NCBI RefSeq assembly: GCF_001463905.1
Contig: NZ_BBWR01000002.1
Coordinates: 310,001-374,000 of the forward strand
DNA: 64,000 nt
Origin: Aureimonas frigidaquae
GTDB taxonomy: Bacteria > Pseudomonadota > Alphaproteobacteria > Rhizobiales > Rhizobiaceae
Reading direction: 5' to 3'
Shown here: positions 23,319-45,230 of the stretch, in pieces
Layout: the number at the start of each line of letters is the position of its first letter
How positions within the stretch are numbered: position 1 is the first letter of the stretch
Program-made: the position numbers and the translations under genes
Notes under the pieces: generated by a model
Databases searched by the model: none
Told to the model about the DNA's origin: nothing
What the model saw: the letters and a program-made list of their open reading frames with translations, nothing else

Positions 23319-23356
23319 CAAATCATCCTGGCGGCTATGGTTAGGTCAGCGGACTA

Positions 23357-24871
23357 TCAGGCCGCCGCGCGATCGGTCTCGTCCATCCACTCTGCGAAAG
23401 CCGCCTTTTCCGCCGGGCTGAGGTGCAGGCCATGCTTGGTCCGGCGCACCAGGATATCGTCCGCGGTGCGTGCCCATTCCTGCGCCATCAGGTAGCGTGC
23501 CTCCGCCTCGTAGAGGTCGCCCCCAAAATGGCGGCCGAGGCCATCCATCCCCGACGCCGTGCCGACCAAGCGCTCGGTCCGCGCTCCGTAGAGCCGCGCA
23601 TAGTGGCGCAGCAGACGCCGCGGCATCCAGGGATAGGTCTGGCGCAGATCTTGCGCAAAGGCGACGAAATCGGCTTGCGCCATTTCTCCGCCGGGCAGCG
23701 GCGCATGCGCCGTCCACGGGCCGGACATCTGCGGGAAGTAGGAGGCGATCTTCTCGACGGCGTGTTCGGCGAGCTTGCGGAAGGTCGTGATCTTGCCGCC
23801 GAAGACGTTCAGGAGCGGCACACCATCCGTTTCGTCGAGGTCGAACGTATAATCGCGCGTGACGGCGGAGGGGTTGCCCTGGCCGTCATCGAAGAGTGGC
23901 CGCACGCCGGAGAAGGCGTGGATGACGTCGGTGCGGCGCAGCTGTTCCTTAAAGTAGCGGTTCACCACCGCCAGGAGATAGGCGATCTCGTCCTCTCCGG
24001 CGGCGACATCCTCCGGGCGCCCTTCATAGGGAATGTCGGTCGTGCCGATCAGCGCCATATCACCTTCATAGGGATTGATGAAGATGACGCGCTTGTCGTG
24101 ATTCTGGACGAGATAGGCCTGCGTGCCCTCCCAGAACTTGGGCACGATGATGTGGCTGCCCTTCACCAGGCGCACATTGCGGGGGCTGTTGCTGCCCGTG
24201 ACCCGCCCGGCAATGTCCTTGACCCAGGGGCCGCCGGCATTGACGAGCACGCGCGCGCGCACCTGGCGCTTGCTGCCCGTCTCGAGGTCCGTGAACTCGA
24301 CGTGCCAGGCCTTGCCGTCGCGCCGCGCGCTGGTGCAGGCGGTGCGTGTCAGCACCTCCGCGCCCTTTTCACGCGCGCCGACGGCGTTCAGCACGACGAG
24401 CCGTGCATCGTCGACCCAGCAGTCGGAATATTCGAAGCCCCGGCGATAGGCGTCCTTGATCGGCGCGCCTTCCGGATCGCGGGCAAGGTCGAGCGTCCGG
24501 GTGCCCGGCAGCTTCTTGCGCCCGCCCAGATGGTCGTAGAGGAACAGGCCCAGCCGGACGAGCCAGGCCGGCCTGTCCTGCGGGCTGTGCGGCAGGACGA
24601 AGCGCATCGGCCAGATGATGTGCGGCGCCGCGTTGAGCAGCACCTCCCGCTCGATCAGCGCTTCGCGCACCAGGCGAAATTCATAATATTCCAGGTAGCG
24701 AAGGCCGCCATGCACGAGCTTCCCCGAGCGCGAGGACGTGCCCTGCGCCAGATCGTCCTTTTCACACAGAATCACGGACAGGCCGCGCCCGGCCGCGTCG
24801 CGCGCAATGCCCGCACCGTTGATGCCGCCGCCGATCACGACGAGATCGATCGTCTCCAAATCGTTCATCAT
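23357..24871 (-). CDS. eryB: Erythritol-4-phosphate dehydrogenase (EryB), GlpD-like flavoprotein
   Basis: The ~504-residue FAD enzyme of the glycerol-3-phosphate dehydrogenase family has the dinucleotide loop VVIGGGINGAGIARDAAGRG near its N-terminus. It also has SSRSGKLVHGGLRYLE, VLVNAGGPWV, LIGTTDIPYEG and FGGKITTFRKLAEHA. EryB oxidises L-erythritol 4-phosphate to L-3-tetrulose 4-phosphate at the membrane, passing electrons to the respiratory chain. The start is one of two adjacent ATGs (24871 or 24868) behind AGGAGAG. The first overlaps the eryA stop. Identity as EryB rather than GlpD comes from its place between eryA and eryC. Confidence 0.9.
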   Translation of the reverse strand: MMNDLETIDLVVIGGGINGAGIARDAAGRGLSVILCEKDDLAQGTSSRSGKLVHGGLRYLEYYEFRLVREALIEREVLLNAAPHIIWPMRFVLPHSPQDRPAWLVRLGLFLYDHLGGRKKLPGTRTLDLARDPEGAPIKDAYRRGFEYSDCWVDDARLVVLNAVGAREKGAEVLTRTACTSARRDGKAWHVEFTDLETGSKRQVRARVLVNAGGPWVKDIAGRVTGSNSPRNVRLVKGSHIIVPKFWEGTQAYLVQNHDKRVIFINPYEGDMALIGTTDIPYEGRPEDVAAGEDEIAYLLAVVNRYFKEQLRRTDVIHAFSGVRPLFDDGQGNPSAVTRDYTFDLDETDGVPLLNVFGGKITTFRKLAEHAVEKIASYFPQMSGPWTAHAPLPGGEMAQADFVAFAQDLRQTYPWMPRRLLRHYARLYGARTERLVGTASGMDGLGRHFGGDLYEAEARYLMAQEWARTADDILVRRTKHGLHLSPAEKAAFAEWMDETDRAAA

Positions 24872-26514
24872 GCACTCTCCTGCGCCGCATCGGCGGCTGC
24901 CATCGTCTGTTCCGTATGTTCGGGGCCCGCCGCAGATTCCATGTCGGCCTGCGGCCGCGATGCGGCCATCTCGTGCCAGACCGGCGCAAGCTGGCGCCGC
25001 GCCAAACGGTAGGCTTCGAAATTGCGGGCATAGAGCTGCGCGAGGCCGGCATCCGGCTCTTCCGGTGCGTCCAGAAGCGGCGTGACCCATTCGGCGATAC
25101 AGGCGTCCATGCTGTCATAGGCGCCGATGGCGACGCTCGCCATCATGGCGGCGCCAGCGGCACCGGCCTCCTCACGCGCGCAGACGCGAACGGGTGCGCC
25201 GACGCAGGCGGACAGCACGGCGCGCAAGGCGCGCGAGCGCGCCGCCCCGCCCGTCAGGCGCAGTTCGGACGGCATCGGCCCCATGGCGGCGTAACAATCG
25301 CGCGTGGCCATGCCGAGACCTTCGACAACCCCGCGCAAGAGGTCGGGGAAGCGGTGCCCGGCCGAAAGACCCAGGAAGCTGGCCCGCGCTTGCGCATCGA
25401 TGAAGGGACCACGCTCCCCCGTATCGGAAATATAGGGATGGTACAGAAGCGCACCGGGCGCGCTGCGGGCCATCCAACCATCGATCCGCGCGACGAGCTC
25501 CCCATGGCTAACCGCCGGCCCGAACTCCTGGATCAGATCACCGGCCAGGCGCAGCGCCCAGTCGATGTTCAGCGTGGCCGCCATGTTGGTCTGGACCTGG
25601 GTGACCATGTGCGGCGCCGGCAGAAGGATCACATAGCCGGTATTCTCGTCGTTCAGCGCAACCTCGTGATCGCGGACGGCGCGCATGTGGACGCCCGTCG
25701 ATCCGACCGTCGAACAGGCGACATCCGCCGCGCCCGTATGGACGCCCGCGCCGAGCGCCGTCATGACCATGTCGACGAAGCCGAGGCTGACCGGCGTGCC
25801 CGCTCGCAGGCCGGTGGCCGCGGCAGCCTCAGCGGTGAGCGGCATGGTTTCACGCGTGCCGTCCAGGATGGGCGGTAGAAGATGGCGGTGGCCCGAAAGC
25901 CCCAGCGCCTCGATGACGGTGTCGTCATAGGCGCGGGTCCGGAAATTGCCGAAGGTGAAGCTGGCTTCGGACGGATCGGTGGCGCGCACGCCCGTGAGCT
26001 GCAGGAAGAGCCAGTCCTTGCAGTGCAGCGCGCACCCCGCCTCTGCCAGGAGCTCCGGGCAGGATTTTGCCATATGGGCAAGCTGCGCACCCTGCTGGCA
26101 GGTGTTGAGACCCGTTCCCGTGGCTTCGAACCTTGCACGCTCCAGCGGGCCGGACTGCAGTCTTGCCACGGTGGGCGCGGCGCGGGCATCCAGCCACAGC
26201 CACGCATCGGTGAAAGGGCGCCCGTCCCGGCCGACCAGCCAGGTTCCATCGCCCTGCCCCGTCACGGACACGGCCGCCACCCGATCGGCAAAGCCGTCAT
26301 GCCGTTCGACAAGCTCGCGTATGGCCTGGGCGCAATCGGCCCAGGTGTCGTCCAGCGACTGGACGGCGGCACCGCCAGGCCCGTGCCGGTAGCGGTTCAA
26401 AACCGATGCGACGCCGAGCTGGCGGCCGGACAGGTCGAAGGCGACAGCCTTGATGACCGACGTTCCGGCATCGATGCCGATGATGATGTCCACACCCTCC
26501 CGACCGATGATCAT
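24868..26514 (-). CDS. eryA: Erythritol kinase (EryA), FGGY family
   Basis: The 548-residue FGGY carbohydrate kinase phosphorylates erythritol as the first step of the ery pathway. It opens with the phosphate-1 motif IIIGIDAGTSVIKAVAFDLS, contains VTGQGDGTWLVGRDG and DAWLWLDARA, and has the second-domain motif LRLTGGAARSRALRAVLS. The N-terminus closely recalls Brucella EryA. The ATG at 26514 follows GGGAGG. The C-terminal ~30 residues are Ala/Glu-rich and longer than needed for the fold. It lies 27 bases after eryD and overlaps eryB. Confidence 0.92.
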   Translation of the reverse strand: MIIGREGVDIIIGIDAGTSVIKAVAFDLSGRQLGVASVLNRYRHGPGGAAVQSLDDTWADCAQAIRELVERHDGFADRVAAVSVTGQGDGTWLVGRDGRPFTDAWLWLDARAAPTVARLQSGPLERARFEATGTGLNTCQQGAQLAHMAKSCPELLAEAGCALHCKDWLFLQLTGVRATDPSEASFTFGNFRTRAYDDTVIEALGLSGHRHLLPPILDGTRETMPLTAEAAAATGLRAGTPVSLGFVDMVMTALGAGVHTGAADVACSTVGSTGVHMRAVRDHEVALNDENTGYVILLPAPHMVTQVQTNMAATLNIDWALRLAGDLIQEFGPAVSHGELVARIDGWMARSAPGALLYHPYISDTGERGPFIDAQARASFLGLSAGHRFPDLLRGVVEGLGMATRDCYAAMGPMPSELRLTGGAARSRALRAVLSACVGAPVRVCAREEAGAAGAAMMASVAIGAYDSMDACIAEWVTPLLDAPEEPDAGLAQLYARNFEAYRLARRQLAPVWHEMAASRPQADMESAAGPEHTEQTMAAADAAQESA

Positions 26515-26541: not shown

Positions 26542-27504
26542 TCAGACCTGCCGCTCGTCCAGAATGGCCGCGGCCGTCCCCTCATCCGTGATGAGGCCCG
26601 ACAGGATGCCGCTCGACAGGACCGAGCGGATGCCGTCGATCTTCGCCTCGCCCCCGGCAATGGCCACGACCCGCCGCTGCCGCAGAACATCCAGGCCCGG
26701 AGAAACGGTCCGCGCGGACAGCGCGGTTTCCACCGGCCGCCCGTCACGGTCGAAGAAGTGCCCCAGAAGCTCGCCGACGCCGCCCCCGGCCTGCACTTCC
26801 CGGATCTCGTCGATATCGATCATACGTGAGGCGACGAGCTGCGCATCGGGCTGCGCCGTGCCGACCCCCACCACCATGAGGTCCGCCCGCTCCGCCAACT
26901 GGAACACCTCCTGTACGCCGCGCTGCGCCAGAAGCACGTTCCGATCGGCGACGGTGTTGGCGAAGAACGGAACCGGCAGGACATAGGCGGCCGATCCGGT
27001 GCTCTGCGCCAGGCGGTGCATGACATCGTGCGGATTGGCCGAAAAATTGCGCGTCAGCCCGCCGAGGAGCGACACGAACTGAACCCGCCCCCCATCGATA
27101 TGCGGCATGGAGGCGACAGCGGCAGCCAGGGTCCGCCCATGACCGAACCCGATCACCCCGCCATCCTGCTGCAGCGCCTCGATCTGCCGCCGCAAATATC
27201 CGGCGCCGGCCATGCCGAGCGCCCGCAGCGGCAGCCCGGATTCGTACAGATTGGGCACCACGTCGCAGAAACTCAGGCCGAAGCGGTCGATCAGCCGTTC
27301 CCCGGCCTCCAGACATTCGACCACGGCTCCGTCGATGGACACTTTGACAGCGCCGATCTGGCTCGCACGCGTGACGAGGCGATGGGCCTTGACGCCCGAT
27401 ACGCCCAGCCGGGCGGCAACCTCGGCCTGTGTCAGCCCGGCGCCGTAATGCAACCATGCCGCACGGATGGCCAGACTGTCGTCCGCCGGGCGCCGCGCTA
27501 CCAT
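26542..27504 (-). CDS. eryD: SorC-family regulator of erythritol genes (EryD)
   Basis: The 320-residue SorC/DeoR-type regulator has an N-terminal HTH (GLTQAEVAARLGVSGVKAHR) and a large sugar-phosphate-binding effector domain with GFGHGRTLAAAVASMP and VVGVGTAQPDA. In Brucella EryD represses the ery operon and is relieved by the inducer. Here it is the first gene of the minus-strand operon (order D-A-B-C) and faces the transporter operon across a 474-base divergent control region. It therefore probably governs both. Confidence 0.9.
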   Translation of the reverse strand: MVARRPADDSLAIRAAWLHYGAGLTQAEVAARLGVSGVKAHRLVTRASQIGAVKVSIDGAVVECLEAGERLIDRFGLSFCDVVPNLYESGLPLRALGMAGAGYLRRQIEALQQDGGVIGFGHGRTLAAAVASMPHIDGGRVQFVSLLGGLTRNFSANPHDVMHRLAQSTGSAAYVLPVPFFANTVADRNVLLAQRGVQEVFQLAERADLMVVGVGTAQPDAQLVASRMIDIDEIREVQAGGGVGELLGHFFDRDGRPVETALSARTVSPGLDVLRQRRVVAIAGGEAKIDGIRSVLSSGILSGLITDEGTAAAILDERQV

Positions 27505-27880: not shown

Positions 27881-27982
27881 ATGTCCGCTTGCACAGCCCT
27901 GCCGGGTTACGGCCGCCGCTGCGTCGGCGGCATGCGTCCGGCGCCGCTCATGACACCAAGCCAAGGGTGCCCACAGCAATGA
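27881..27982 (+). CDS. Upstream leader ORF (33 aa) coupled to DUF2291 gene
   Basis: The ATG at 27881 stands 8 bases after a strong GGGAGG site (27867-27872). It opens a 33-codon frame starting MSACTALPGYGRRCV. Its TGA (27980-27982) overlaps the ATG of the next gene (27979). The layout is typical of translational coupling. The peptide is rich in Gly, Pro, Arg and Cys and has no recognised domain, so it may be a leader whose translation opens the operon rather than a working protein. Confidence 0.45.
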   Translation: MSACTALPGYGRRCVGGMRPAPLMTPSQGCPQQ

Positions 27983-28635
27983 CGACCAAGGCCGTTTCCG
28001 CACCAACGCAGCGTGGCTTCCTGCGGCCCCGCAACATCGTCCTGACCGTCGCCGGCCTGGCGCTCGTGGCCGCCATGGCGCTGGACACGACCGTCGTGGA
28101 GATCGGCGCCGACAGCGCCTCCCGGGCGCAGGGCTTTTCCGCACAGACCTATGGCCCGCAGGAATTTCCGCGCATCCAGACGGCGATCGAGGGCAAGGCC
28201 GCCGATGCCGTGGCGCTCGCCACCCAGATCGCGCAGGACAAGGACGCTGCGGTTGCCGCCCACGGCACCCCGTCCGGCGTCGGCCCCGTCATGGCCGTGA
28301 CCTTTACCGGCGTGGCGGGGGAAGCACGCTCGGGCGTTTACACCGTGGCCATCGACGGCATGCCGGAAGGCACCAATGTGCGCGTGCAGACCGGCCCGGC
28401 GATCAACGGCACGGAGCTGCGTGACGCGCCGGGCGATATCGCCTTCGGCCAGTTCACGAACCAGATCGAGTATCAGAATGCCGGCGCGGCGCTGAACGAC
28501 GAGATGAAACGGCAGGTTCTGGAAGGGGTGGATACCACCGCCCTGACCGGCAAGACCATCGAGGTGACGGGTGTCTTCCGCCTGATCAACCCCAAGAACT
28601 GGCTCGTCACGCCGGTGCGGATGGCTGTCCGATGA
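27979..28635 (+). CDS. DUF2291 family periplasmic/membrane-anchored protein
   Basis: The 218-residue protein has an N-terminal hydrophobic anchor (FLRPRNIVLTVAGLALVAAMAL) and a periplasmic DUF2291-type domain. That domain includes YGPQEFPRIQTAIEGKAADA, VAVTFTGVAGEARSGVYTV and a C-terminal VTGVFRLINPKNWLVTPV. No lipobox cysteine is present, although relatives are often predicted lipoproteins. Such genes recur beside ribose-type ABC transporters for polyols in rhizobia, but their role is undescribed. Its stop overlaps the ATPase start (ATGA), so it belongs to the transporter operon. Confidence 0.8.
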   Translation: MTTKAVSAPTQRGFLRPRNIVLTVAGLALVAAMALDTTVVEIGADSASRAQGFSAQTYGPQEFPRIQTAIEGKAADAVALATQIAQDKDAAVAAHGTPSGVGPVMAVTFTGVAGEARSGVYTVAIDGMPEGTNVRVQTGPAINGTELRDAPGDIAFGQFTNQIEYQNAGAALNDEMKRQVLEGVDTTALTGKTIEVTGVFRLINPKNWLVTPVRMAVR

Positions 28636-30167
28636 GCGCTTTGGGCAAGGCCGTCGAGGGCCTGGGTGAAACCGTCCTGGCGGCACGCAACGTGGCCAAG
28701 AGCTACGGCAATATCCATGCGCTGAAGGGCGTCAACTTCGAAGTGCGGCGCGGCCAGGTCACGACCCTTTTCGGAGAGAACGGTGCCGGCAAATCGACGC
28801 TGATGCGCATCCTGTCCGGGGTGACGCCGCCCAGCTCCGGGGAGATCCTCCTGGACGGCGTGCCGGTGACCTTCGCCTCGTCCGTCGATGCGCGGGATCG
28901 CGGCGTCTCGATCATCCACCAGGAATTGAGCCTCGCCCCCAATCTGAGTGTGCGCGACAATATCTTCATGGGGCGCGAGCTGCGCGGCCCCACCGGCGTC
29001 GACTTCGCCGAGGAAGAGCGGCAGGCCCGTGCGCTGATGGAGGAGCTGGAAGAGGATATCGACCCGCTCACCCCGGTCGAGGAACTGCGCCTCGGCCAGC
29101 AGCAGATCGTCGAGATCGCGCGCGCTCTGTCGATTAATGCGCGCATCCTGATCATGGACGAGCCGACATCCGCGCTCAGCGCCTCGGAGGTCGAGGTTCT
29201 CTTCAAGGTCATTCGTGACCTGAAGGCGCGCGGCGTGGCGATCGTCTACATCTCGCATCACCTGGAAGAGGCGCTGCAGATCACCGACCATGCGGTCGTT
29301 CTGCGTGACGGCGCCATGACGGCGGCGGCGGAGCGCCGCAACATCGATCTGGAATGGATCGTCCGCCACATGGTGGGCGAGAACTTCGATCTCGGCGCGC
29401 CGCCGACCGGCTATAATTTCGGCCCCGTCGCGCTGTCCGTGCGCGATGTCAGCGTGACCGACAAATCCGGCATCGAGCTGGTGGACAGGCTGAGCCTCGA
29501 CGTCCGCGCCGGAGAGGTCGTCTGCATCTACGGGCTCATGGGCGCGGGGCGGACCGAACTCCTGGAAGCCATCGCCGGACGCCAGGCCCTGTCGGGCGGC
29601 GCGATCGTCCTGGAAGATCGGGACGTCTCCCGGCTGAGCATTGCCGAGCGCATCCAGCGCGGCCTCGTGCTCATTCCGGAAGATCGTCAGCGGGATGGGC
29701 TCGTCCAGACCATGTCGGTGGGCACGAACCTGTCGCTCGCCAGCATCAAGGCCTTCACCCGCGGGCTCTTCACCTCCACCGCGCGGGAGGATGCACTCAT
29801 CGCGGATTCGATCCGCCGCGTGCACATCAAGACCGGCGGCGCCGATCTGCCGATCGGCTCCCTCTCCGGGGGCAACCAGCAGAAGGTGGTCATCGGCAAG
29901 ATGCTCGCCACGCTGCCCCGCGTCGTCCTTTTGGACGAGCCGTCCCGCGGGATCGACATCGGCGCCAAGGCGGAGGTTTTCAAGCTCCTGGCCGAACGCG
30001 CCCGGGACGGCCTCGCCGTCGTCTACTCGACCTCCGAAGTCGGGGAATGCCTGAGCATCGCGCACAGGATCATCGTCATGAGCCGCGGCCGCATCGCGGC
30101 GGAGTTCGGCTCGGACGTCACCAAGGAAAAGATCATGGCCGCGTCGGGCGAGGCCGTCGTCGCATGA
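28632..30167 (+). CDS. eryE: Ribose-type sugar ABC transporter ATPase, probable erythritol importer (EryE)
   Basis: The 511-residue protein is a tandem ABC ATPase of the RbsA/XylG type. The first domain has Walker A GENGAGKST, a signature-like LRLGQQQIVEIARAL and Walker B ILIMDEPTSAL. The second has the usual degenerate Walker A GLMGAGRTE, LSGGNQQKVVIGKML and VVLLDEPSRGIDIG. It powers sugar or polyol import with the permease and binding protein downstream. The gene is coupled to both neighbours by ATGA overlaps. The erythritol assignment is by position beside eryABCD. Confidence 0.87.
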   Translation: MSALGKAVEGLGETVLAARNVAKSYGNIHALKGVNFEVRRGQVTTLFGENGAGKSTLMRILSGVTPPSSGEILLDGVPVTFASSVDARDRGVSIIHQELSLAPNLSVRDNIFMGRELRGPTGVDFAEEERQARALMEELEEDIDPLTPVEELRLGQQQIVEIARALSINARILIMDEPTSALSASEVEVLFKVIRDLKARGVAIVYISHHLEEALQITDHAVVLRDGAMTAAAERRNIDLEWIVRHMVGENFDLGAPPTGYNFGPVALSVRDVSVTDKSGIELVDRLSLDVRAGEVVCIYGLMGAGRTELLEAIAGRQALSGGAIVLEDRDVSRLSIAERIQRGLVLIPEDRQRDGLVQTMSVGTNLSLASIKAFTRGLFTSTAREDALIADSIRRVHIKTGGADLPIGSLSGGNQQKVVIGKMLATLPRVVLLDEPSRGIDIGAKAEVFKLLAERARDGLAVVYSTSEVGECLSIAHRIIVMSRGRIAAEFGSDVTKEKIMAASGEAVVA

Positions 30168-31288
30168 GCAACAGGGAAAAGCGGAGCCAGCCGACCATGT
30201 CCGACACACGTTCAGCTTCCAGCAGGTCCGCCAGCGGCGGCGGAAGCGGTTTCGACGTTGCGCGCCTGCTTCTGGAAGGGCGCGCCTTCTTTGCCCTGAT
30301 CGTCATCATTGCGGTCTTTTCCTTCCTGTCGCCGGTCTACTTCACGGTGAACAACTTCCTGGTCATGTCGTCCCATGTGGCGATCTTCGGCCTGCTCGCC
30401 ATCGGCATGCTGCTCGTCATCCTGACCGGCGGCATCGATCTGTCCGTCGGCTCGACCCTGGGCCTGGCCGGCGTCGTCGCCGGCTACATGATGCAGGGCG
30501 TCAGCCTCGATATGTTCGGCGTCGTCCTGTACCCGCCGGTCTGGGCCGTCGTCGTGCTGACCGTGGCGCTGGGCGCCTTTGTCGGGGCGGTCAACGGGGT
30601 GCTGATCGCCGTCTTCCGGGTGCCGGCCTTCGTGGCGACACTGGGCGTCCTCTATGTGGCGCGTGGCGCGGCGCTGCTGATGACCAACGGCCTGACCTTC
30701 AACAACCTGGCCGGCCGGCCGGAACTCGGCAATACGGGCTTCGACTGGCTCGGCTTCAACCGCCTTTTCACCGTTCCCATCGGCGTCATCATCCTGATCG
30801 TCGTCGCGGTGATCGCCAGCATCATGCTGAACCGCACGGCCTTCGGCCGCTGGATCTATTCGACCGGCGGCAATGCACGCGCCGCCGAACTGTCGGGCGT
30901 GCCCGTCCGGTTCACGACCATGGCCGTCTATATCCTGTCGGGAATGTGCGCGGCGATTGCCGGCCTGGTCCTGTCCTCGCAGCTCACCTCGGCCGGGCCG
31001 ACGGCCGGCACGACCTACGAACTGACGGCCATCGCGGCCGTGGTCGTGGGCGGCGCCGCTTTGACCGGCGGCCGCGGCACGGTGCGCGGCACGCTGCTGG
31101 GCGCCTTCGTGATCGGTTTCCTGGGTGATGGCCTCGTCATCATCGGCGTCTCGTCCTACTGGCAGACGGTCTTTACCGGCGCGGTCATCGTGCTGGCCGT
31201 GCTTCTGAACAGCATCCAGTACGGCCGGCGGCCCAAGCGCGCCGCCGCAACGCAGACCACGGCTCCGGCGGCGCCGACGCGGGCCTGA
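30164..31288 (+). CDS. eryF: Ribose-type sugar ABC transporter permease, probable erythritol importer (EryF)
   Basis: The ~374-residue permease of the RbsC family has 8-10 hydrophobic segments. It contains LLVILTGGIDLSVGSTLGLAGV, the hallmark block of this family, and GGNARAAELSGVPVRFTTMAVY. The ATG at 30164 overlaps the ATPase stop; an alternative ATG at 30197 would remove 11 polar residues. The Ser-rich N-terminus and the Ala/Thr-rich tail are low complexity. It works with EryE and EryG-like partners. Confidence 0.88.
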   Translation: MSNREKRSQPTMSDTRSASSRSASGGGSGFDVARLLLEGRAFFALIVIIAVFSFLSPVYFTVNNFLVMSSHVAIFGLLAIGMLLVILTGGIDLSVGSTLGLAGVVAGYMMQGVSLDMFGVVLYPPVWAVVVLTVALGAFVGAVNGVLIAVFRVPAFVATLGVLYVARGAALLMTNGLTFNNLAGRPELGNTGFDWLGFNRLFTVPIGVIILIVVAVIASIMLNRTAFGRWIYSTGGNARAAELSGVPVRFTTMAVYILSGMCAAIAGLVLSSQLTSAGPTAGTTYELTAIAAVVVGGAALTGGRGTVRGTLLGAFVIGFLGDGLVIIGVSSYWQTVFTGAVIVLAVLLNSIQYGRRPKRAAATQTTAPAAPTRA

Positions 31289-31413: not shown

Positions 31414-32364
31414 ATGCGCAAATCCATCAAGGCCCTGCTTCTGGCAGGCATGGTCGCGATTTCCCCGTCCTTTGCGGCTTCGGCATCGGCCGAAGGCCTC
31501 ATGACGGTGATCGTCAACGATCCGTCCAACCCCTACTGGTTCACCGAGGGCGAAGTCGCCTCGGCCACCGCCAAGGAGCTCGGCTACGAGGCCGTCGTGT
31601 CGGCCCATCGCGGCGATACGAACACGGAATCGAACCTCATCGACACGGCGATCACCAACCGGTCCGTCGCCATCATCCTGGATCCGGCCAATGCGGACGG
31701 CTCCGTCGGCGCGGTGCGCAAGGCCGTCAATGCCGGCATCCCGGTCTTCCTGGTGAATGCCGAGATCAACCAGGAAGGGCTCGCCAAGTCGCAGCTCGTG
31801 TCCAACAACGCCCAGGGCGCCGCGCTCGGTGCGCAGCAGTGGGTCGAGACGGTCGGCGACTCTGCCAAGTATGTGGAACTGCTCGGCGCGCCGTCCGACA
31901 ACAATGCCGCGACGCGCTCCAACGGCTACACGACGGTGCTCAGCCAGTATCCGGACCTCGAGAAGGTCGGCCAGGATGTCGCCAACTGGGATCGTACCCA
32001 GGGCTTCAACCGCATGCAGAGCCTGCTCCAGGCCAATCCGGACATTAACGGCGTGATCAGCGGCAATGACGAAATGGCGCTCGGCGCCATCGCCGCCCTG
32101 AAGCAGGCCGGCAAGCTGCAGAACGTCACCGTCGGCGGTTTCGACGGCTCGCCCGATGCCGTGGCCGCGATCAAGGCCGACGAACTCGCCTACACCGTGC
32201 TGCAGCCGGTCGCTGTCTTTGCCGAGGAAGCGGTCCGCCAGGCCGACAACTTCATCAAGACGGGCAAGACCGGGGCCGACGCCGAGAAGCAGCTCTTCGA
32301 TTGCGTCCTGATCACCAAGGACAATGTGGACAAGTACACCGCACCCTTCGTGCTCGAGCAGTAA
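31414..32364 (+). CDS. eryG: Ribose-type sugar-binding protein, probable erythritol importer (EryG)
   Basis: The 316-residue periplasmic binding protein of the RbsB family (type 1 fold) has a signal peptide to about residue 28 (ending ASASAEG). The mature start MTVIVNDPSNPYWFTEGEVA and the hinge region VISGNDEMALGAIAALKQAG are typical of pentose/polyol binders. GGGAGAGAC precedes the ATG. It lies 125 bases after the permease and ends before a strong terminator, closing the transporter operon. Confidence 0.88.
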   Translation: MRKSIKALLLAGMVAISPSFAASASAEGLMTVIVNDPSNPYWFTEGEVASATAKELGYEAVVSAHRGDTNTESNLIDTAITNRSVAIILDPANADGSVGAVRKAVNAGIPVFLVNAEINQEGLAKSQLVSNNAQGAALGAQQWVETVGDSAKYVELLGAPSDNNAATRSNGYTTVLSQYPDLEKVGQDVANWDRTQGFNRMQSLLQANPDINGVISGNDEMALGAIAALKQAGKLQNVTVGGFDGSPDAVAAIKADELAYTVLQPVAVFAEEAVRQADNFIKTGKTGADAEKQLFDCVLITKDNVDKYTAPFVLEQ

Positions 32365-32374
32365 GCATCTTGCG

Positions 32375-32399
32375 AAAGGGCGCCGCGAGGCGCCCTTTT
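32375..32399 (+). terminator. Intrinsic terminator of the ery transporter operon
   Basis: Stem AAAGGGCGCC (32375-32384) / GGCGCCCTTT (32389-32398), loop GCGA, followed by TCCTTTTC. It lies 11 bases after the eryG stop. Confidence 0.88.
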
Positions 32400-32459
32400 C
32401 CTTTTCAGGCGTGCGGCCGGAAATACCGCACGTGTGATCGAACGAGTGGGGCACATGGC

Positions 32460-33314
32460 ATGGCCGGCGAAAGACAGGGCAGCACCGAGCCGGAACTCCA
32501 GTCCCTGTTGAGCGACGAGAGCCAGGCCGACACGCGCCAGTCACGCCAGTTGGCGCGCCGCCAATCCATCGCCGAGGCGGTGATGGGCGAAGGCTCCATG
32601 CGGATCGAGGATATCAGCGCACGCTTCGGCATCAGCCTGATGACGGCGCATCGTGACCTCGACGAACTGGCAGGCCGCGGGCTCCTGCGCAAGGCGCGCG
32701 GCGTGGTCTCCGCCGCGCCGACCAGCCTGATCGAATCCAGCGACGTCTATCGTGCCAACCGCCAGCAGGCAGAAAAGGCCGCCATCGCACAGGCCGCCAT
32801 GGCCTTCGTCGAGCCGGGACAAGCGCTGTTCCTGGATGATTCGACCACGGTGCACATGATGGCCGAGCACCTCCCGGCCAAGACGCCGCTGACCTGCATC
32901 ACCAATTCCCTGACGCTCATGACCACGCTCAAGGGCCTGCGCGACATTTCGCTGATCGGGCTGGGCGGGCAATATTACAACTGGTGCAACGCGTTCATGG
33001 GCCGGATGACGACATTGGAGGTCTCGCGGCTGCGGGCCGACACGCTGTTCCTGTCCATGGCCGCGGTGACGGACGACATCGTCTTCCACCAATCGCCCGA
33101 GATGATCGAAACCAAGCGCGCCATGTTCAACGCCGCGGCCCGCCGCATCCTGCTCGTGGACAATACGAAGTTCGAGCGGCGCGCGCTGCATGGCTTTGCA
33201 GCCCTTGCCGAATTCGACACCGTCATCGTGGACGGAAACACCGCGCCCATCCATGTCGAGCGCATGCGCGCCAAGGGGATCGCCGTCGTCGTCGCGCCCA
33301 TGCAGCCCGTGTGA
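32460..33314 (+). CDS. DeoR-family transcriptional regulator
   Basis: The 284-residue protein has a DeoR-type winged helix (MRIEDISARFGISLMTAHRD, residues ~40-75). Its sugar-phosphate sensor domain has LDDSTTVHMMAEHL, ISLIGLGGQYYNW, and a C-terminal RRILLVDNTKFERRALH. An additional ~38-residue polar N-terminus precedes the HTH. It stands between the ery transporter terminator and the kinase cassette, 82 bases upstream of the kinase. It is a paralogue of the regulator at 34926 and probably controls the cassette in response to a phosphorylated polyol. Confidence 0.88.
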   Translation: MAGERQGSTEPELQSLLSDESQADTRQSRQLARRQSIAEAVMGEGSMRIEDISARFGISLMTAHRDLDELAGRGLLRKARGVVSAAPTSLIESSDVYRANRQQAEKAAIAQAAMAFVEPGQALFLDDSTTVHMMAEHLPAKTPLTCITNSLTLMTTLKGLRDISLIGLGGQYYNWCNAFMGRMTTLEVSRLRADTLFLSMAAVTDDIVFHQSPEMIETKRAMFNAAARRILLVDNTKFERRALHGFAALAEFDTVIVDGNTAPIHVERMRAKGIAVVVAPMQPV

Positions 33315-33351
33315 GCGGCAGGGACGTAACATATATTGCTGTGAACTTCCC

Positions 33352-33364
33352 AACATTGTATGTT
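33352..33364. promoter_or_regulatory. Inverted repeat AACAT-TGT-ATGTT upstream of kinase cassette
   Basis: Perfect 5-bp arms lie within an AT-rich patch about 33 bases upstream of the kinase start, in the gap after the DeoR gene. The location is right for a DeoR operator; binding is not shown. Confidence 0.45.
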
Positions 33365-33396
33365 CATATTCGACATGGGGTGGGGAGGCGCGGGCC

Positions 33397-34926
33397 ATGG
33401 TCTGCATTCTGGGTATCGACAGTGGACTGACGGTCACGAAGGCCGTCATCTTCGATGAAACGGGGCAAACCCTTGCCGTCGCGCGGCGGCGGATACCCCA
33501 AAGCATTCCCCGCCCCCGCCATGTCGAGCGCGACATGACCGGCCTGTGGACAGAGACGGCAGCCGCCATCCGGGAGGCGATTGCCGCCAGCGGCCGCCCG
33601 GCCGACGATATCGCGGCCATCGCGGCGACGGCCCATGGTGACGGATTGTATCTTCTGGACCGCAGCCGGCAGCCGCTCGGCCCGGGCATCCTGTCGCTGG
33701 ACAGCCGCGCGGGCCAGATTCTGGATGGATGGAGCCGGTCCGACACCTGCGCGCGCGCCCTGGCGCTCACGGGCCAGGAGCCGCACCTTTCGGCGCCGTC
33801 GACGCTGCTGGCCTGGATCCGCGAAGAGGAGCCGGAGCGCTACGCGCAGATCGGCCATATCGTCGGTTGCAAGGATTGGCTGCGCTTCTGCCTGACAGGC
33901 ACGATCGGCACAGACCGGACGGAGGCAAGCACATCCTTCACCGACGTGCAGAGCCAGGCCTATGCGCCCGAGGCACTTGCGATCTTCGGCCTCACGGCCA
34001 TATCGCATGCGCTGGCGCCGGTGTCCGGCTCCGCCGAGATCGTGGGTCATGTCACGGCTGACGCAGCGCGCCAGACGGGCCTCCTGGAGGGGACGCCGGT
34101 CGCCGCCGGCCTGCACGACGTCACGGCCTCCGCGCTCGGGGTCGGCGGCCAGCGGCTCGGCACGGTGGACATCGTGGCCGGGACCTATTCCATCAACGAA
34201 GTCGTGTCCCATGAGCCGCGGGTCGATCCACGCTGGTTCTGCCGCAACGCGATCCAGCCCGGGCAGTGGAACGCCATGTCCATTTCTCCCGCATCGGCCA
34301 CCAATTACGACTGGTTCCTGGACCGGCTCTGCGGCGCGGAGCGCCAGGCGGCAGACAGGGACGGCACGGACATTCACGCCGCGCTCGCGCGCGGCCTCGA
34401 TGCGGCGCTTGCGCGCCCCTCCACGCTGCTCTTCCATCCCTTCCTGTTCGGCTCCCCCCATGGCAGCAGCGCCAGCGCGGGGTTCGTGGGCCTGCATGGC
34501 TGGCATGACCGCGATGATATGCTGCGCGCCGTGATCGAAGGCATCGCGTTCAACCATCGCTACCATGTCGATGCGCTGCACGACGCCTTCCCCTTCACCG
34601 GCGCGCGGCTGACGGGGGGCATTGCCCGCAACGCGACGGTCGCGCAGCTCTTTGCCGATATTCTAAGCTTGCCGGTGACCGTGTCGCAAACGGAAGAGGC
34701 CGCCGCCTGGGGCGCTGCGCTCTGCGCCGGCGCTGCCATCGGCCTGTTCGAAACGCCGATGGCCGATCCGCGCGGGGCTGCCGCCGACGGCAGGACCTTC
34801 CTGCCGCGCCCCGACCATGCGGCCGCCTATGAGCGCCGCTACACGGCCTATGCCGCGCTGACACAGGCGCTCGCGCCCGTCTGGCCGCAGCTCGAGGCCC
34901 TGGGCGACGCCGGGAGGGCTTCCTGA
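33397..34926 (+). CDS. FGGY-family carbohydrate/polyol kinase of unknown substrate
   Basis: The 509-residue FGGY kinase has the opening ILGIDSGLTVTKAVIFDETG, IAATAHGDGLYLLD, IVGCKDWLRFCLTG and the ATP-domain block ARLTGGIARNATVAQLFADI. It resembles L-xylulose kinase/erythrulose-kinase-like members more than glycerol kinase, but the substrate cannot be read off. GGGGAGG lies 8 bases before the ATG. Its stop overlaps the start of the next DeoR gene (TGATG), which in turn overlaps the FAD dehydrogenase. It is therefore the first step of a compact kinase-regulator-dehydrogenase cassette parallel to eryA-eryB. Confidence 0.87.
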   Translation: MVCILGIDSGLTVTKAVIFDETGQTLAVARRRIPQSIPRPRHVERDMTGLWTETAAAIREAIAASGRPADDIAAIAATAHGDGLYLLDRSRQPLGPGILSLDSRAGQILDGWSRSDTCARALALTGQEPHLSAPSTLLAWIREEEPERYAQIGHIVGCKDWLRFCLTGTIGTDRTEASTSFTDVQSQAYAPEALAIFGLTAISHALAPVSGSAEIVGHVTADAARQTGLLEGTPVAAGLHDVTASALGVGGQRLGTVDIVAGTYSINEVVSHEPRVDPRWFCRNAIQPGQWNAMSISPASATNYDWFLDRLCGAERQAADRDGTDIHAALARGLDAALARPSTLLFHPFLFGSPHGSSASAGFVGLHGWHDRDDMLRAVIEGIAFNHRYHVDALHDAFPFTGARLTGGIARNATVAQLFADILSLPVTVSQTEEAAAWGAALCAGAAIGLFETPMADPRGAAADGRTFLPRPDHAAAYERRYTAYAALTQALAPVWPQLEALGDAGRAS

Positions 34927-35699
34927 TGCGCAGCGGCGACCGGCGCGACGATATCGCAGCCTATGTGATTGCGCATGGACAGGTTCGGATCGACACGCTC
35001 GTCGAGCATTTCGGCGTGTCGCGGATGACGATCCACCGCCATGTCGACCAGCTCGCCGAACGGGGTGTGCTGCGCAAGCTGCATGGCGCCGTCAGCGCCC
35101 AGCCTTCCGGCATCTATGAAAGCCTGTTCCAGTTCCGGACCGGCCTTGCCCAGAAGGAGAAGCTGGCTTTGGCCGAAGCCGCGCTCGCCTATGTCGAGCC
35201 CGGACAGGTCGTGATGCTGGACGATTCGACGACGGTCGCGGCCCTGGCGCCGCGTCTTGCCGCGCAGGCCCCGCTGACCGTCGTCACCAACAGCCTCGGC
35301 GCGGCGCAGGTGCTGAAAGCCGCGGACGGGATCGAGCTTCTCTGCCCGGGCGGCCAGTACCATGCCACCTACGATGCCTATATCGGTCATGTTTGCGAGA
35401 CCGCCCTTACACGCATGCGGGCGGATGTGGCCGTGTGTTCGGCTTCCGCTGTGGATGGGCTGGACTGCTTCATCCAGGATGCCGGGGTCGTGCGCGTCAA
35501 GCAGGCCATGCTGGCCTCGGCCCGCACGCGCATCCTTCTGGTCGATCAGTCGAAGTTCGGCCGCACCGCCCTGCACCACTTCGCGCGGCTCGACATGTTC
35601 ACCCATGTCCTCGTTGCCGGCGGCCTGCCGCCCGCGACGAGCCGCAAGCTCACCGAAGCAGGCATCCCGTTCAGAGAAGTCGGAAAGCGATCGACATGA
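34926..35699 (+). CDS. DeoR-family transcriptional regulator inside the kinase cassette
   Basis: The 257-residue DeoR regulator has an HTH at residues ~5-40 (VRIDTLVEHFGVSRMTIHRH). Its effector domain has LDDSTTVAALAPRL, IELLCPGGQYHATYDAYIG and TRILLVDQSKFGRTALHHF. It is clearly related to the 32460 regulator in layout. Its start overlaps the kinase stop and its stop overlaps the dehydrogenase start, so it is made in step with the enzymes, as expected for autoregulation. The ligand is probably the kinase product, by inference. Confidence 0.88.
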   Translation: MRSGDRRDDIAAYVIAHGQVRIDTLVEHFGVSRMTIHRHVDQLAERGVLRKLHGAVSAQPSGIYESLFQFRTGLAQKEKLALAEAALAYVEPGQVVMLDDSTTVAALAPRLAAQAPLTVVTNSLGAAQVLKAADGIELLCPGGQYHATYDAYIGHVCETALTRMRADVAVCSASAVDGLDCFIQDAGVVRVKQAMLASARTRILLVDQSKFGRTALHHFARLDMFTHVLVAGGLPPATSRKLTEAGIPFREVGKRST

Positions 35700-37357
35700 G
35701 TTCCAACGTGCAAAGCTACGACGTGGTGATCTTGGGCGCGGGCGTGAACGGGGCCGGCCTGTTCCGCGATCTGTGCGAGCAGGGCTTGTCCTGCCTGATC
35801 GTCGACAAGGGGGATTTCGGCGGCGGCACGAGCGCGGCGCCGTCGCGCCTGATCCATGGCGGCATCAAATATCTGGAAACCGGGGAGTTCGGCCTGGTCC
35901 GGCAATCCACGCTGGAGCGCAACCTGCTTCTGCGCAACGCGCCGCATTGCGTCTACCCGCTGCCGACGCTCATCCCGATCTTCTCCTGGACGCGGGGTGC
36001 CTGGGCGGCCGTGCGAACGCTGTTCGGCTCGGCGACCGCACCGCGCAGCCGGGGCGCGGCCATCGTGAAGATCGGACTGTCGCTTTATGATCTCTATGGC
36101 GCGCGCCACCGTGTGATGCCGCGTCACAGGGTCCTGTCGCGGCGCAAGGCCCTGGCGGCGATCCCCGCGTTGACCCCCGCCATCGTGGCGGCCGGCACCT
36201 ATTACGATGCCTGGATCGCACGGCCGGAGCGGCTGGTCTTCGAACTCGTCGCGGATGGCATTGCGGCCTCGCCGGGCTCGAAAGCCATGAGTTGGACCAG
36301 CATCCTCGGGCTCGAAGCGGACCGTATCGCGCTGGTGGCGGAGGATGGGCAGGAGGATACGGTGTCCGCCCGGATCATCGTCAATGCGGCCGGCCCCTGG
36401 ATCGATCACGTCAACGCTGCGCTCGGCACGCCGAGCCGTCTGATCGGCGGCACCAAGGGGTCGCACATCCTCATGGACCATCCTGAGCTTGTGAAGATGC
36501 TCAGCGGCCGGATGATCTATTTCGAGGCCGATGACGGGCGCATATGCCTCGTCTACGACTATCTCGGCCGCGCGCTTGTCGGATCGACGGACATCAAGGC
36601 CGACAATCCCGACAGCGTGACCTGCGAGGATGCGGAGATTGACTACCTCCTGGCAAGCCTGAAAGGGCTCTTGCCGGGCCTCTCCTTCGACCGCTCGCAG
36701 ATCGTCTACGCCTATAGCGGCATCCGCCCCCTGCCCGCCTCCGACGCGGCCAATGTTGGGCTGATCAGCCGCGATCATTCCGCGCCCGTGCTGGAGCCTG
36801 CGGGCGGGCGGACCGTCCCGATCATATCTCTGGTGGGCGGCAAGTGGACCACCTTCCGGGGCTTTGCCGCGGAGGTGGCCGACACGATCCTCGAGCGGCT
36901 CGGCCAGACGCGGCGCCGATCGACCGAGACGCTGCCTATCGGAGGTGGGCGGGACTATCCCGCCAACGGAGCCGCACGCCGGGCATGGTGCGCGGACTGT
37001 TCGCGGGAAACGGGGCTGGCGCCGGACCGGATCGCCACGCTCCTGGCGCGCTATGGATCGACGGCACGGGATATCGCGCGTCATGAGGCGCAGTTCGGCA
37101 GTGAAAGACTGGCCAATGCGCACGATTATGGGCTGGCCGAGATCGACTACATTCTTGCGAAGGAACAGGTGAAACACCTGTCCGACATCGTTCTGCGCCG
37201 CACGACGCTGGCCGTGACGGGCGCCCTCACCATGCGGGATATGCAAGCCATCGCACAGCGCGCCGCGCAGGTGCTGGGGTGGAGCGACGACCGGCTTGAC
37301 GAGGAGGTCACGCAGACCGCCGCATGGTTGCGGGAAAGCGGACGCCTGCGTCTGTAA
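35696..37357 (+). CDS. GlpD/EryB-like FAD-dependent polyol-phosphate dehydrogenase
   Basis: The 553-residue flavoprotein of the glycerol-3-phosphate dehydrogenase family has the FAD loop VVILGAGVNGAGLFRDLCEQ. It also has GGGTSAAPSRLIHGGIKYLE, IIVNAAGPWIDHV, LVGSTDIKAD, YSGIRPLP and GGKWTTFRGFAAEV, plus a helical C-terminal domain. It is about 50 residues longer than the EryB copy here, mainly through an insertion after the second block (IFSWTRGAWAAVRTLFGSAT). That insertion may be a membrane-contact element. It is coupled to the upstream DeoR gene by ATGA. It would oxidise the phosphorylated product of the adjacent kinase; glycerol 3-phosphate is an alternative substrate. Confidence 0.88.
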   Translation: MSSNVQSYDVVILGAGVNGAGLFRDLCEQGLSCLIVDKGDFGGGTSAAPSRLIHGGIKYLETGEFGLVRQSTLERNLLLRNAPHCVYPLPTLIPIFSWTRGAWAAVRTLFGSATAPRSRGAAIVKIGLSLYDLYGARHRVMPRHRVLSRRKALAAIPALTPAIVAAGTYYDAWIARPERLVFELVADGIAASPGSKAMSWTSILGLEADRIALVAEDGQEDTVSARIIVNAAGPWIDHVNAALGTPSRLIGGTKGSHILMDHPELVKMLSGRMIYFEADDGRICLVYDYLGRALVGSTDIKADNPDSVTCEDAEIDYLLASLKGLLPGLSFDRSQIVYAYSGIRPLPASDAANVGLISRDHSAPVLEPAGGRTVPIISLVGGKWTTFRGFAAEVADTILERLGQTRRRSTETLPIGGGRDYPANGAARRAWCADCSRETGLAPDRIATLLARYGSTARDIARHEAQFGSERLANAHDYGLAEIDYILAKEQVKHLSDIVLRRTTLAVTGALTMRDMQAIAQRAAQVLGWSDDRLDEEVTQTAAWLRESGRLRL

Positions 37358-42928: not shown

Positions 42929-43010
42929 TGCGGCTTCCATCAGTTGCTGAAGGGAAATCGGGCCGCAAACAGGATTTGGGCATGCGCAAGCGCACGCCGT
43001 CTGCCCGTTC

Positions 43011-43130
43011 TCTCTCATCCGGACTATACCGTCGGCGCCGGAGTTTCACCGGACTCTGCTGACCCTGCCATGGGCAGGCGCTCGCGGGCTGTGACCGCCG
43101 GTGGGGAATTGCACCCCGCCCCGAGAACCG
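43011..43130 (-). promoter_or_regulatory. FMN riboswitch (RFN element)
   Basis: Read on the minus strand, the element has the conserved blocks GGGGCGGGGTGCAATTCCCC, ACCGGCGGT, AGCCCGCGAGC, GTCCGGTGAAACTCCGGCGCC and TAGTCCGGATGAGAGAGA, in RFN order. It controls ribH2. A following hairpin (42980-42999, GGCGTGCGC/GCGCATGCC on the minus strand) has no U-run, so translational rather than transcriptional control is more likely. Confidence 0.95.
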
Positions 43131-43200: not shown

Positions 43201-43662
43201 TCATGCGGAATGATACTTCCGGTCGAGCGCGTCGATAGCGTCGACATTGTCGGCCGACTTTCCATTCGGGTCGAAGCTGACGGAAAGGTAGGCGTCAGCG
43301 ATGGACTTCGCCAGTTCCGCACCGATCACCCGCGCACCCATGGTGATGATCTGCGCATTGTTCGACAGGGCTGCCCGCTCGGCCGAATAGGTGTCGTGCG
43401 TCTGAGCCGCGCGGATACCCGGAACCTTGTTGGCCGACAGCGCCACGCCGATGCCGGTGCCGCAGCACAGGATGGCGCGGTCATAGGTGCCGTCGAGCAC
43501 GCCGCTCGCGACGCGTTCGGACAGGTTGGCGTAGAGTTCGGACGAACCGGCGGGCGGCGTGCTCACATCCGACACTTCCAGCCCGGCCTTGCCGGACAGG
43601 TGTTCGGCAAGGGCCTTGGCCAGCGGCGCCCCGGCACTGTCACCGGCGATTGCGATCTTCAT
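43201..43662 (-). CDS. eryI: RpiB-type isomerase, probable D-erythrose-4-phosphate isomerase (EryI)
   Basis: The 153-residue sugar-phosphate isomerase of the RpiB/LacA family begins [20 protein letters not shown]. It contains the active-site block [20 protein letters not shown] and [20 protein letters not shown]. In Brucella and rhizobia the RpiB encoded with TpiA2 converts the tetrose intermediate to D-erythrose 4-phosphate (renamed EryI). It is the last gene of the eryR-tpiA2-rpiB operon, 17 bases after tpiA2. Classic ribose-5-phosphate isomerase activity is the alternative. Confidence 0.9.
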
Positions 43663-43679: not shown

Positions 43680-44444
43680 TCAGAGCGATGCGGCGCAACG
43701 GTCGAGTATGTCGAGATAGCCTTCGACATCCCAGGCCGAGCGCCCGATGAACAGGCCGTCGATATGTGGGCAAGCGATCAGTTCGACGCAATTGCCCGGA
43801 TTGACACTCCCGCCATAGAGGCAGGGAATGCGATGGCCCGTGACGGAGCGGGCGATCTCGATGATGCGGGCCTGGCGGTCATCGGCATAGTCGGCCGTGG
43901 CCGGCTTGCCATGTTCGCCGATGGCCCAGACCGGCTCGTAGGCGATCAGGATGGGACGCGCGGCCTGATCTGCGCCGAGCTTGCCGAGCGCTCCTTCGAC
44001 CTGCCGGGCCAGGACGGCATCGGCTTGTCCAGCCTCTTTCTCCTCCTCCGTCTCACCGACGCAGATGAGCGGGATGAGCCCATGCGCCACGGCAGCGGCC
44101 ACCTTCAGGCCAACGGTTTCGTCGGTCTCTCCGAAGTAAGCGCGGCGCTCTGAATGGCCGAGCTCCACGATGTCGAGCTTGCAATCGACCAGCATCGGCG
44201 CGGACACTTCACCCGTCCAGGCGCCAGCCTCCGCCCAATGCATGTTCTGCGCGCCGACCTTCACGTCGCTGTTTGACAAAAGGGCCTTCACCTCCCGCAC
44301 CAGCGTGAAAGGCGGGACGATGAACCGCTGGATGCGCGGGTCCGCGGGCGCTTGCGCCAGCCGTTCGGCATAGGCGCGCCCTTCCGCCAGCGTCTTGTTC
44401 ATTTTCCAACTCGTACCGATCCAGAGCCGGTTCGTCTGCGACAT
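43680..44444 (-). CDS. eryH: Triose-phosphate isomerase homologue TpiA2 (EryH)
   Basis: The 254-residue TIM barrel has all catalytic residues of the triose-phosphate isomerase family: Lys in GTSWKMNKT, His in [13 protein letters not shown] and Glu in [12 protein letters not shown], plus the phosphate loop YGGSVNPGN. In Brucella the second TIM, encoded with rpiB, is the D-3-tetrulose-4-phosphate isomerase EryH. It starts 3 bases after the eryR stop. The EryH role follows from context; a true TpiA role cannot be excluded from sequence. Confidence 0.88.
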
Positions 44445-44447
44445 GAT

Positions 44448-45230
44448 CTAATCCTTGTGCGCGAAGAAAAGTTTGATGCCCTCGTCCATCAGGGCCGTCG
44501 CCTTGTCGCCCGGGAGCGCATCCGAGGTGATGACGCCATCGAAGACGCTGAGGTCCGATAGGCGGTGCAGTGCGGTCCGCCCGAACTTGCGATGATCAAC
44601 CATCAGGTAATGCACCGAGGACGAGGCGATCATGCCGCGCTTGACCTCAAGCACCTCCTGGTCCTGGTGAAAGGCCGTCCGCCCGTCGATGGCCGAACTC
44701 GACAGGAAGGCGACATCCGCGCGCAGCTCGGCAATGGCCTTTTCCGCGACCGTGCCGAAGAAACCGTTGAACTTCTTGGAGAAGCTGCCGCCCAGCGCCA
44801 GAAGGTCGATGCCCGGTTCCCCGGCCAGGCCTGTGATCAAGGCGAGATTGTTGGTGATGACTGTTAGCGGGCGCTTGTCGATCAGATGGGGGGCGATCAT
44901 CTGCGAGGTCGACCCGTCATCCACCATGACGATCATGCGCCGCTCGATAAAGTCGGCGGCACGCTGTGCGATGCGGCGCTTCTCGTCGGCCGCGACGCGC
45001 GCGCGGTACCGGAAATCACTCTCGAACTGCCCACCGGCCTCGATCGTGGCTCCGCCGCGGATCTTGCGCAAGAGGCCGGCCGACTCCAGTTCGTCCAGAT
45101 CGCGGTGGATGGTCATGGTCGACACGTCGAAGCAGCTCGCCAACGCCTCCAGCGTTACCGAACCTTCCCGGATCAGCATCTCGATGATCTCATGCCTGCG
45201 CTGTTCGGGCCGCACTGCGATCTCCTCCAC
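44448..45230 (-). CDS. eryR: DeoR-family regulator (EryR-like)
   Basis: The 260-residue DeoR regulator has an HTH at residues ~15-50 (GSVTLEALASCFDVSTMTIHRD). Its sugar-phosphate sensor domain has VMVDDGSTSQMIAPHL, IDLLALGGSFSKKFNGFFG and VHYLMVDHRKFGRTALHRLS. It heads the operon eryR-eryH-eryI, as in Brucella, where a DeoR gene stands before tpiA2 and rpiB. It is divergent from the class II aldolase, across an AT-rich region with nested palindromes that may be its operator. Confidence 0.88.
   Translation of the reverse strand: MEEIAVRPEQRRHEIIEMLIREGSVTLEALASCFDVSTMTIHRDLDELESAGLLRKIRGGATIEAGGQFESDFRYRARVAADEKRRIAQRAADFIERRMIVMVDDGSTSQMIAPHLIDKRPLTVITNNLALITGLAGEPGIDLLALGGSFSKKFNGFFGTVAEKAIAELRADVAFLSSSAIDGRTAFHQDQEVLEVKRGMIASSSVHYLMVDHRKFGRTALHRLSDLSVFDGVITSDALPGDKATALMDEGIKLFFAHKD

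Follow-up and report, generated by a model that had tools for sequence, protein, structure and literature searches.

The described systems closest to the genes reported here are the erythritol pathway of Brucella, Ochrobactrum, and Rhizobium, which runs through EryA, EryB, EryC, EryH, and EryI, and the pathways by which Mycobacterium smegmatis breaks down D-threitol, L-threitol, and erythritol (EltD, LerK, LerI, DerI). In the sections of two reports that deal with the erythritol intermediates, the EryB product is L-3-tetrulose 4-phosphate (D-erythrulose 1-phosphate), which is inverted by EryC, and EryH and EryI then lead to erythrose 4-phosphate (PMC11508834, PMC10733421). The M. smegmatis route, according to the corresponding parts of PMC10733421 and PMC12780249, takes L-threitol to L-erythrulose 1-phosphate and through two isomerases to erythrose 4-phosphate, the same course that we propose below for a three-gene cassette of Aureimonas frigidaquae. 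The cassette lies in a stretch of 64,000 nucleotides (GCF_001463905.1, contig NZ_BBWR01000002.1, positions 310,001 to 374,000 of the forward strand), here called the window, whose own positions are used throughout. It encodes an FGGY kinase (KIN), a DeoR-family regulator (DeoR2), and a GlpD-like flavin adenine dinucleotide (FAD) dehydrogenase (GPDL). The cassette is a real and recurrent module, undescribed in the literature searched (threitol pathways, kinases, and the ery locus), and it is most likely a variant of known tetritol catabolism in which phosphorylation comes first, for which those searches likewise returned no description. Judged by their sequences, its enzymes are neither duplicates of EryA and EryB nor GlpK and GlpD.

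Organization of the cassette

KIN (33397..34926), a predicted L-threitol (tetritol) kinase, DeoR2 (34926..35699), the putative regulator of the cassette, and GPDL (35696..37357), a polyol-phosphate dehydrogenase whose predicted product is L-erythrulose 1-phosphate, are all on the forward strand. KIN and DeoR2 were assigned by open reading frame (ORF) reading and family scan, with a tree and orthologues in addition for KIN, and GPDL by family scan and tree. Direct reading of the ORFs confirmed the overlaps reported in the initial annotation: KIN starts with the ATG at 33397, its TGA stop at 34924-34926 overlaps the DeoR2 ATG at 34926 (TGATG), and the DeoR2 stop at 35697-35699 overlaps the GPDL ATG at 35696 (ATGA). 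The same annotation had placed the cassette between the two arms of an erythritol pathway with a DeoR paralogue immediately upstream, and both arms and the paralogue were located. Upstream are eryDABC on the opposite strand, DUF2291-eryEFG, and the second DeoR gene, DeoR1 (32460..33314, forward strand; family scan and locus comparison); downstream, past a repeat protein of 1660 residues, is eryR-eryH-eryI-ribH2.

Phylogeny and conserved residues of the kinase and dehydrogenase

The cassette had been taken to duplicate the first two steps of erythritol breakdown. The enzyme types are indeed the same, but the lineages are separate, with 33% identity between KIN and EryA and 34% between GPDL and EryB. 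KIN is a full-length FGGY kinase, with FGGY-family models covering residues 5-489; its top NCBIfam model is XylB, at 211 bits against a cut-off of 380, and it reaches 134 of the 590 bits of the GlpK model. GPDL scores 260 of 360 bits against the GlpD model, and every NCBIfam model matched by a cassette protein gives a score below its curated cut-off.

The phylogenetic comparison suggested in the initial annotation was run for both enzymes. In a kinase tree of 51 rows, KIN, its orthologues, and the kinases of sister cassettes form a single clade (Shimodaira-Hasegawa-like approximate likelihood ratio test [SH-aLRT], 97) next to EryA (joint fork, 95) and away from Escherichia coli GlpK, XylB, LsrK, FucK, RhaB, and AraB; the branches leading to these outgroups are long, and the tree is used only to separate KIN from EryA and GlpK. 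In the dehydrogenase tree of 44 rows, a split separates EryB and GlpD (99) from GPDL and its relatives (99); GlpA, the outgroup of this tree, has a long branch. Neither cassette enzyme branches inside the EryA or EryB clade. Branching with GlpK and GlpD, which the initial annotation had named as part of a refuting outcome, was likewise not seen, so that its interpretation withstood this check.

The KIN pocket residues H80, H240, Y264, N267, S297, and P298 are invariant across 49 of 49 rows, and a difference from EryA is seen in 41 of 41; D241, presumably the catalytic Asp, is present in all 49. GPDL is a full-length match to GlpD-type FAD dehydrogenases with the active-site residues kept; those matching GlpD H50, Y55, H233, R317, R332, and K354, which we take to be catalytic or active-site positions, are retained in 23 of 23 rows. 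AlphaFold models of KIN and GPDL were of low confidence (mean predicted local distance difference test scores, 63 and 60).

Gene neighborhoods and distribution

Gene order was compared across 57 loci, comprising the window and 56 fetched stretches, all of them chosen for KIN; two share one genome and some are from close strains. Stretch lengths vary, so that presence counts per stretch are lower bounds. In all 57 loci, KIN and GPDL are neighbors on the same strand. Within the co-directional run of KIN (gaps of <450 bp), DeoR2 is found in 31 loci, DeoR1 in 24, and eryE in 42. Counted over the whole stretch, EryE is present in at least 50 loci, EryA in at least 42, EryC in at least 26, EryH in at least 23, EryI in at least 21, and a DAK-type kinase in at least 8, in 4 of which it belongs to the co-directional run. 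The KIN runs hold EryH in 6 loci, EryI in 5, and EryC in 1. At a wider setting (<700 bp), EryH rises to 7 and EryC to 2 (L056 and L057), both times together with EryA-EryB. Two loci (L036 and L052) have the order EryR-EryH-EryI-KIN-GPDL-DAK.

A strong kinase match was defined as an E value of ≤1e-100 among 61 relatives and ≤1e-110 in the other samples, the window's own genome being counted where it was sampled. Such matches were found in 11 of the 61 relatives; the samples drawn from the order and the family gave 18 of 397 and 46 of 346 genomes, respectively, and a class-wide sample gave 1 of 385, that one being the window's own genome. Holders include Mesorhizobium, Cypionkella, Allorhizobium, and Fuscibacter; KIN is plasmid borne in Rhizobium, Pararhizobium, Paracoccus, and Shinella, and Rhizobium leguminosarum (johnstonii) 3841 has the cassette in its ery locus. 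In seven genomes (G036, G222, G300, G907, G1026, G1071, and G1108), the aligned part of the KIN match carries one flagged stop. By whole-genome search, EryA was present in 78 of 79 cassette genomes, EryC in 77, and a triose-phosphate isomerase (TIM)-family match of the EryH type in 77, and on this basis the cassette and the erythritol pathway go together.

The cassette can nevertheless stand apart from the ery enzymes. Seven Mesorhizobium loci have the order KIN-DeoR-GPDL-DUF2291-eryEFG, preceded by genes for dihydrofolate reductase, HflK/HflC-like proteins, and a protease, and the ery enzymes are absent from the fetched stretch; a whole-genome search, covering all except L018, found EryA, EryC, and EryH elsewhere in the genome. 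The same order is seen in L016, where it is cut short by a short contig. KIN-DeoR-GPDL stands alone in genomes G882 and G1009, and in the latter eryABCD/eryEFG is about 250 kb from the cassette and eryR-eryH-eryI is at a third place. A further arrangement occurs in genome G283, from a family in which 4 of 69 genomes have a strong KIN match: a binding protein and ABC transporter genes are followed by KIN-DeoR-GPDL, with a divergent EryH (64%) alongside. EryC was not found there at E ≤ 1e-5, and EryA (52%) and EryB (69%) lie in a polyol locus resembling that of Sinorhizobium fredii. Since G283 has the cassette beside EryH and no EryC, the cassette product is presumably usable without EryC.

A second kind of context is provided by cassettes whose kinase and dehydrogenase are sister to KIN and GPDL. 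In L051 and L054, as in genome G1079 and the second copy of G1090, they are accompanied by LacD/DeoC-type aldolases and an Aldolase_II-SDR fusion, and more distant cassettes from Sinorhizobium meliloti 1021 pSymB (L078) and Parasedimentitalea (L081) also carry a LacD/DeoC aldolase. The stretches of L051, L054, L078, and L081 gave no match to EryH or EryI, and these cassettes, which have other transporters of their own, probably serve other polyol pathways. Aldolases of the DeoC/LacD and Aldolase_II types usually split sugar phosphates, and their presence fits a GlpD-type ketose-1-phosphate product with the ketone beside the phosphate. Tentatively, the kinase-dehydrogenase pair could be a transferable unit for converting a polyol to a ketose-1-phosphate, which alphaproteobacteria connect either to EryH-EryI (threitol) or to aldolases (longer or deoxy polyols); this would make erythrulose 1-phosphate a hub for the degradation of erythritol, threitol, free erythrulose (by DAK-type kinases), and apionate-type compounds; we lean somewhat against this broader picture. 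A possible hub on erythrulose 1-phosphate is seen in Shinella zoogloeoides (L080, 13449-28945), where the genes that come after the cassette encode a DAK-type kinase, a second transporter of the ribose type with DUF2291, and a RuBisCO-like OiaX. LerK and DerK are presumably linked to the DAK family.

Proposed pathway and its alternatives

The sequences themselves establish gene content, pairing, clade membership, the retained GlpD-type residues, and co-occurrence; with regard to substrate, handedness, transport, and regulation, we infer the following. EryEFG would import the polyol, KIN would phosphorylate L-threitol to L-threitol 4-phosphate, and GPDL would oxidize the carbinol beside the phosphate to give L-erythrulose 1-phosphate (D-3-tetrulose 4-phosphate). 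EryH (TpiB; 43680..44444, reverse strand), the predicted entry point for this product, and the RpiB-type isomerase EryI (43201..43662, reverse strand; start placed by eye) would convert it to D-erythrose 4-phosphate. EryC (22386..23321, reverse strand), the tetrulose-phosphate epimerase/racemase, is predicted to be bypassed, and EryA and EryB would likewise be dispensable for this route. DeoR2, with DeoR1, may control the cassette. The initial annotation had supposed that another polyol is handled and that its oxidized phosphate enters the same isomerases, an idea that gains support from the aldolase-bearing sister cassettes, the co-directional runs with eryH-eryI, and G283. The substrate can most likely be narrowed to a tetritol, with L-threitol as the first candidate. 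In scripted Fischer bookkeeping, the handedness of GlpD and EryB acting on L-threitol 4-phosphate yields L-erythrulose 1-phosphate, the EryH substrate, while the opposite handedness is required for D-threitol and for the other erythritol end. Taking this bookkeeping together with G283 and the runs with eryHI, we consider L-threitol the likeliest single candidate, and we put the chance that the complete route operates as drawn, with EryC skipped, at about even.

Several observations weigh against this proposal. EryC is present in nearly all cassette genomes, and among 65 genomes with a known KIN position, EryC and EryA lie within 30 kb in 55 each and EryH in 44; EryC is the nearer to KIN in 39 and EryH in 17. 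Locus L057 has the single run EryA-EryB-EryC-RibH2-EryD-KIN-GPDL. The EryC-free case with EryH is a single genome, G283, which has a second TIM (55%), probably the housekeeping enzyme; its neighboring transporter is just 31 to 33% identical to EryE and EryF, and its sole RpiB match (47%) is on a different contig. Four genomes (G013, G016, G019, and G836) have the cassette and EryC, and for them the genome search recognized no clear EryH, their EryH-type match being a TIM of only 53 to 54% away from the cassette. GPDL has five fixed changes relative to GlpD (R54K, T270S, T331S, Y334H, and L355W), columns at which EryB retains the E. coli GlpD letters except for L355I, and the kept catalytic residues are no proof of handedness. 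In most loci, among them the window, the cassette and eryEFG point in the same direction, so that separate control would be a supposition. Finally, no phenotype for cassette genes was found in the literature searched; a passage on random-barcode transposon sequencing lists eryB, eryR, tpiA2, and rpiB2 for rhizosphere growth and does not name the cassette genes (PMC11103875).

Among the alternatives, the substrate might be a pentitol or another polyol (arabitol, ribitol, xylitol, or a deoxy or branched compound) whose ketose-1-phosphate is split by an aldolase encoded elsewhere. The tie of the sister cassettes to aldolases would fit, as would the fba gene that adjoins the cassette in R. leguminosarum, Rhizobium ruizarguesonis, and L064. 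However, neither the window nor the Mesorhizobium loci that have a transporter of their own show an aldolase within the cassette or adjoining it, and the lasting link with the erythritol transporter, together with the eryHI runs, points back to a tetritol; we regard a substrate of this kind as unlikely.

More doubtful is a second erythritol route without the epimerase, in which KIN phosphorylates the other end (giving D-erythritol 4-phosphate) and a GPDL of opposite handedness makes L-erythrulose 1-phosphate. The transporter and entry point would be identical, and G283 without EryC would also be accounted for, but GPDL, despite its conserved catalytic residues, would need a handedness opposite to that of GlpD and EryB. 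Nor is a second route needed, because the eryABCHI genes of Ochrobactrum are enough to let E. coli grow on erythritol, according to the part of the report that deals with them (PMC10190533). The importance of eryB in the rhizosphere for R. leguminosarum 3841, a cassette carrier, in the passage already cited (PMC11103875), is a weak further argument, because in Brucella a block of the pathway beyond EryA is toxic in its own right, as stated in a section of PMC11508834.

We place behind this, as improbable, D-threitol as the substrate, with GPDL making D-erythrulose 1-phosphate that enters at EryC. The near-constant presence of EryC and its position, more often nearer the cassette than EryH, are what such a route predicts, but it would need the opposite handedness, G283 keeps the cassette and EryH without EryC, and the one cassette run with EryC also has EryA-EryB. 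A redundant glycerol kinase and glycerol-3-phosphate dehydrogenase, a reading with the GlpD-family match and a like type of chemistry in its favor, is very improbable and was rejected by both trees, in which KIN is far from GlpK and GPDL is outside GlpD plus EryB; A. frigidaquae has a separate GlpD-like gene outside the cassette (C19:76237-77730), and the distribution of the cassette tracks the erythritol genes.

Regulatory elements and neighboring genes

DeoR1 and DeoR2 are 44% identical over 242 residues. The gap of 82 bp 5' of KIN (33315..33396, forward strand) holds GTAACA/TGTTAC-like half-sites, which are also found 5' of KIN in three related loci (L027 to L029); to call them an operator is a guess, and the number of matches to this pattern in the window does not exceed what chance allows (5 found versus 3.06 expected). 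An operator common to the cassette and eryR was rejected and is not used as evidence, as the eryR-side site differs in spacing and the kinase-side pattern is within chance. A GC-rich hairpin followed by a T-rich stretch 3' of eryG (32372..32401, forward strand) is a possible terminator; the terminator scan of the window did not list it.

The transporter operon, on the forward strand, is headed by a predicted periplasmic lipoprotein of the DUF2291 family (27979..28635), followed by the ABC transporter ATP-binding protein EryE (28632..30167), the permease EryF (30047..31288, the extent of the ORF, with the real start probably further in), and the substrate-binding protein EryG (31414..32364). 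On the reverse strand are EryB (23357..24868), EryA (24868..26514, ORF extent), the regulator EryD (26542..27504), and, ahead of eryH-eryI, the DeoR-family regulator EryR (44448..45230). The FG-GAP/Ig-like repeat protein (37443-42425) separates the cassette from ribH2, a lumazine synthase (DMRL synthase) gene at 42491-43018 that is grouped with eryI-eryH-eryR, as it is in L027 to L029. In those relatives ribH2 is directly 3' of the dehydrogenase, without an intervening repeat protein, and in L057 a lumazine synthase copy is also 3' of eryC.

Comparison with known systems

R. leguminosarum 3841, which carries the cassette in its ery locus (KIN, RL_RS33910; GPDL, RL_RS33905), serves in published transposon screens. 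This strain is among those covered by a 2013 survey of erythritol loci, in which the words DeoR, glycerol, and dehydrogenase are absent and "kinase" appears once, for EryA (PMC3599248). The tags pRL120197 to pRL120199, interpolated between pRL120196 (aldolase) and pRL120200 (eryG), are not named in the literature searched. If the proposal is true, it adds a phosphorylation-first threitol route, explains the duplicated look of many erythritol loci, and offers a kinase/dehydrogenase pair for channeling tetritols to erythrose 4-phosphate.

Of the described systems, the erythritol pathway likewise has a kinase first and a GlpD-family FAD dehydrogenase second; the transporter region is common to both, and the last two isomerases would be as well. 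The cassette enzymes belong to different clades with fixed pocket motifs, and under the favored L-threitol route the epimerase step is left out. With GlpK and aerobic GlpD, the cassette has the superfamilies, the type of chemistry, and the GlpD active-site residues in common, but KIN is outside the GlpK clade, and GPDL, at 553 residues versus 501 for GlpD, carries its five fixed changes. M. smegmatis, in the parts of the reports that describe its threitol and erythritol pathways, oxidizes first and phosphorylates second (PMC10733421, PMC12780249), whereas in the cassette phosphorylation would come first and an FAD-type dehydrogenase would act on the phosphate.

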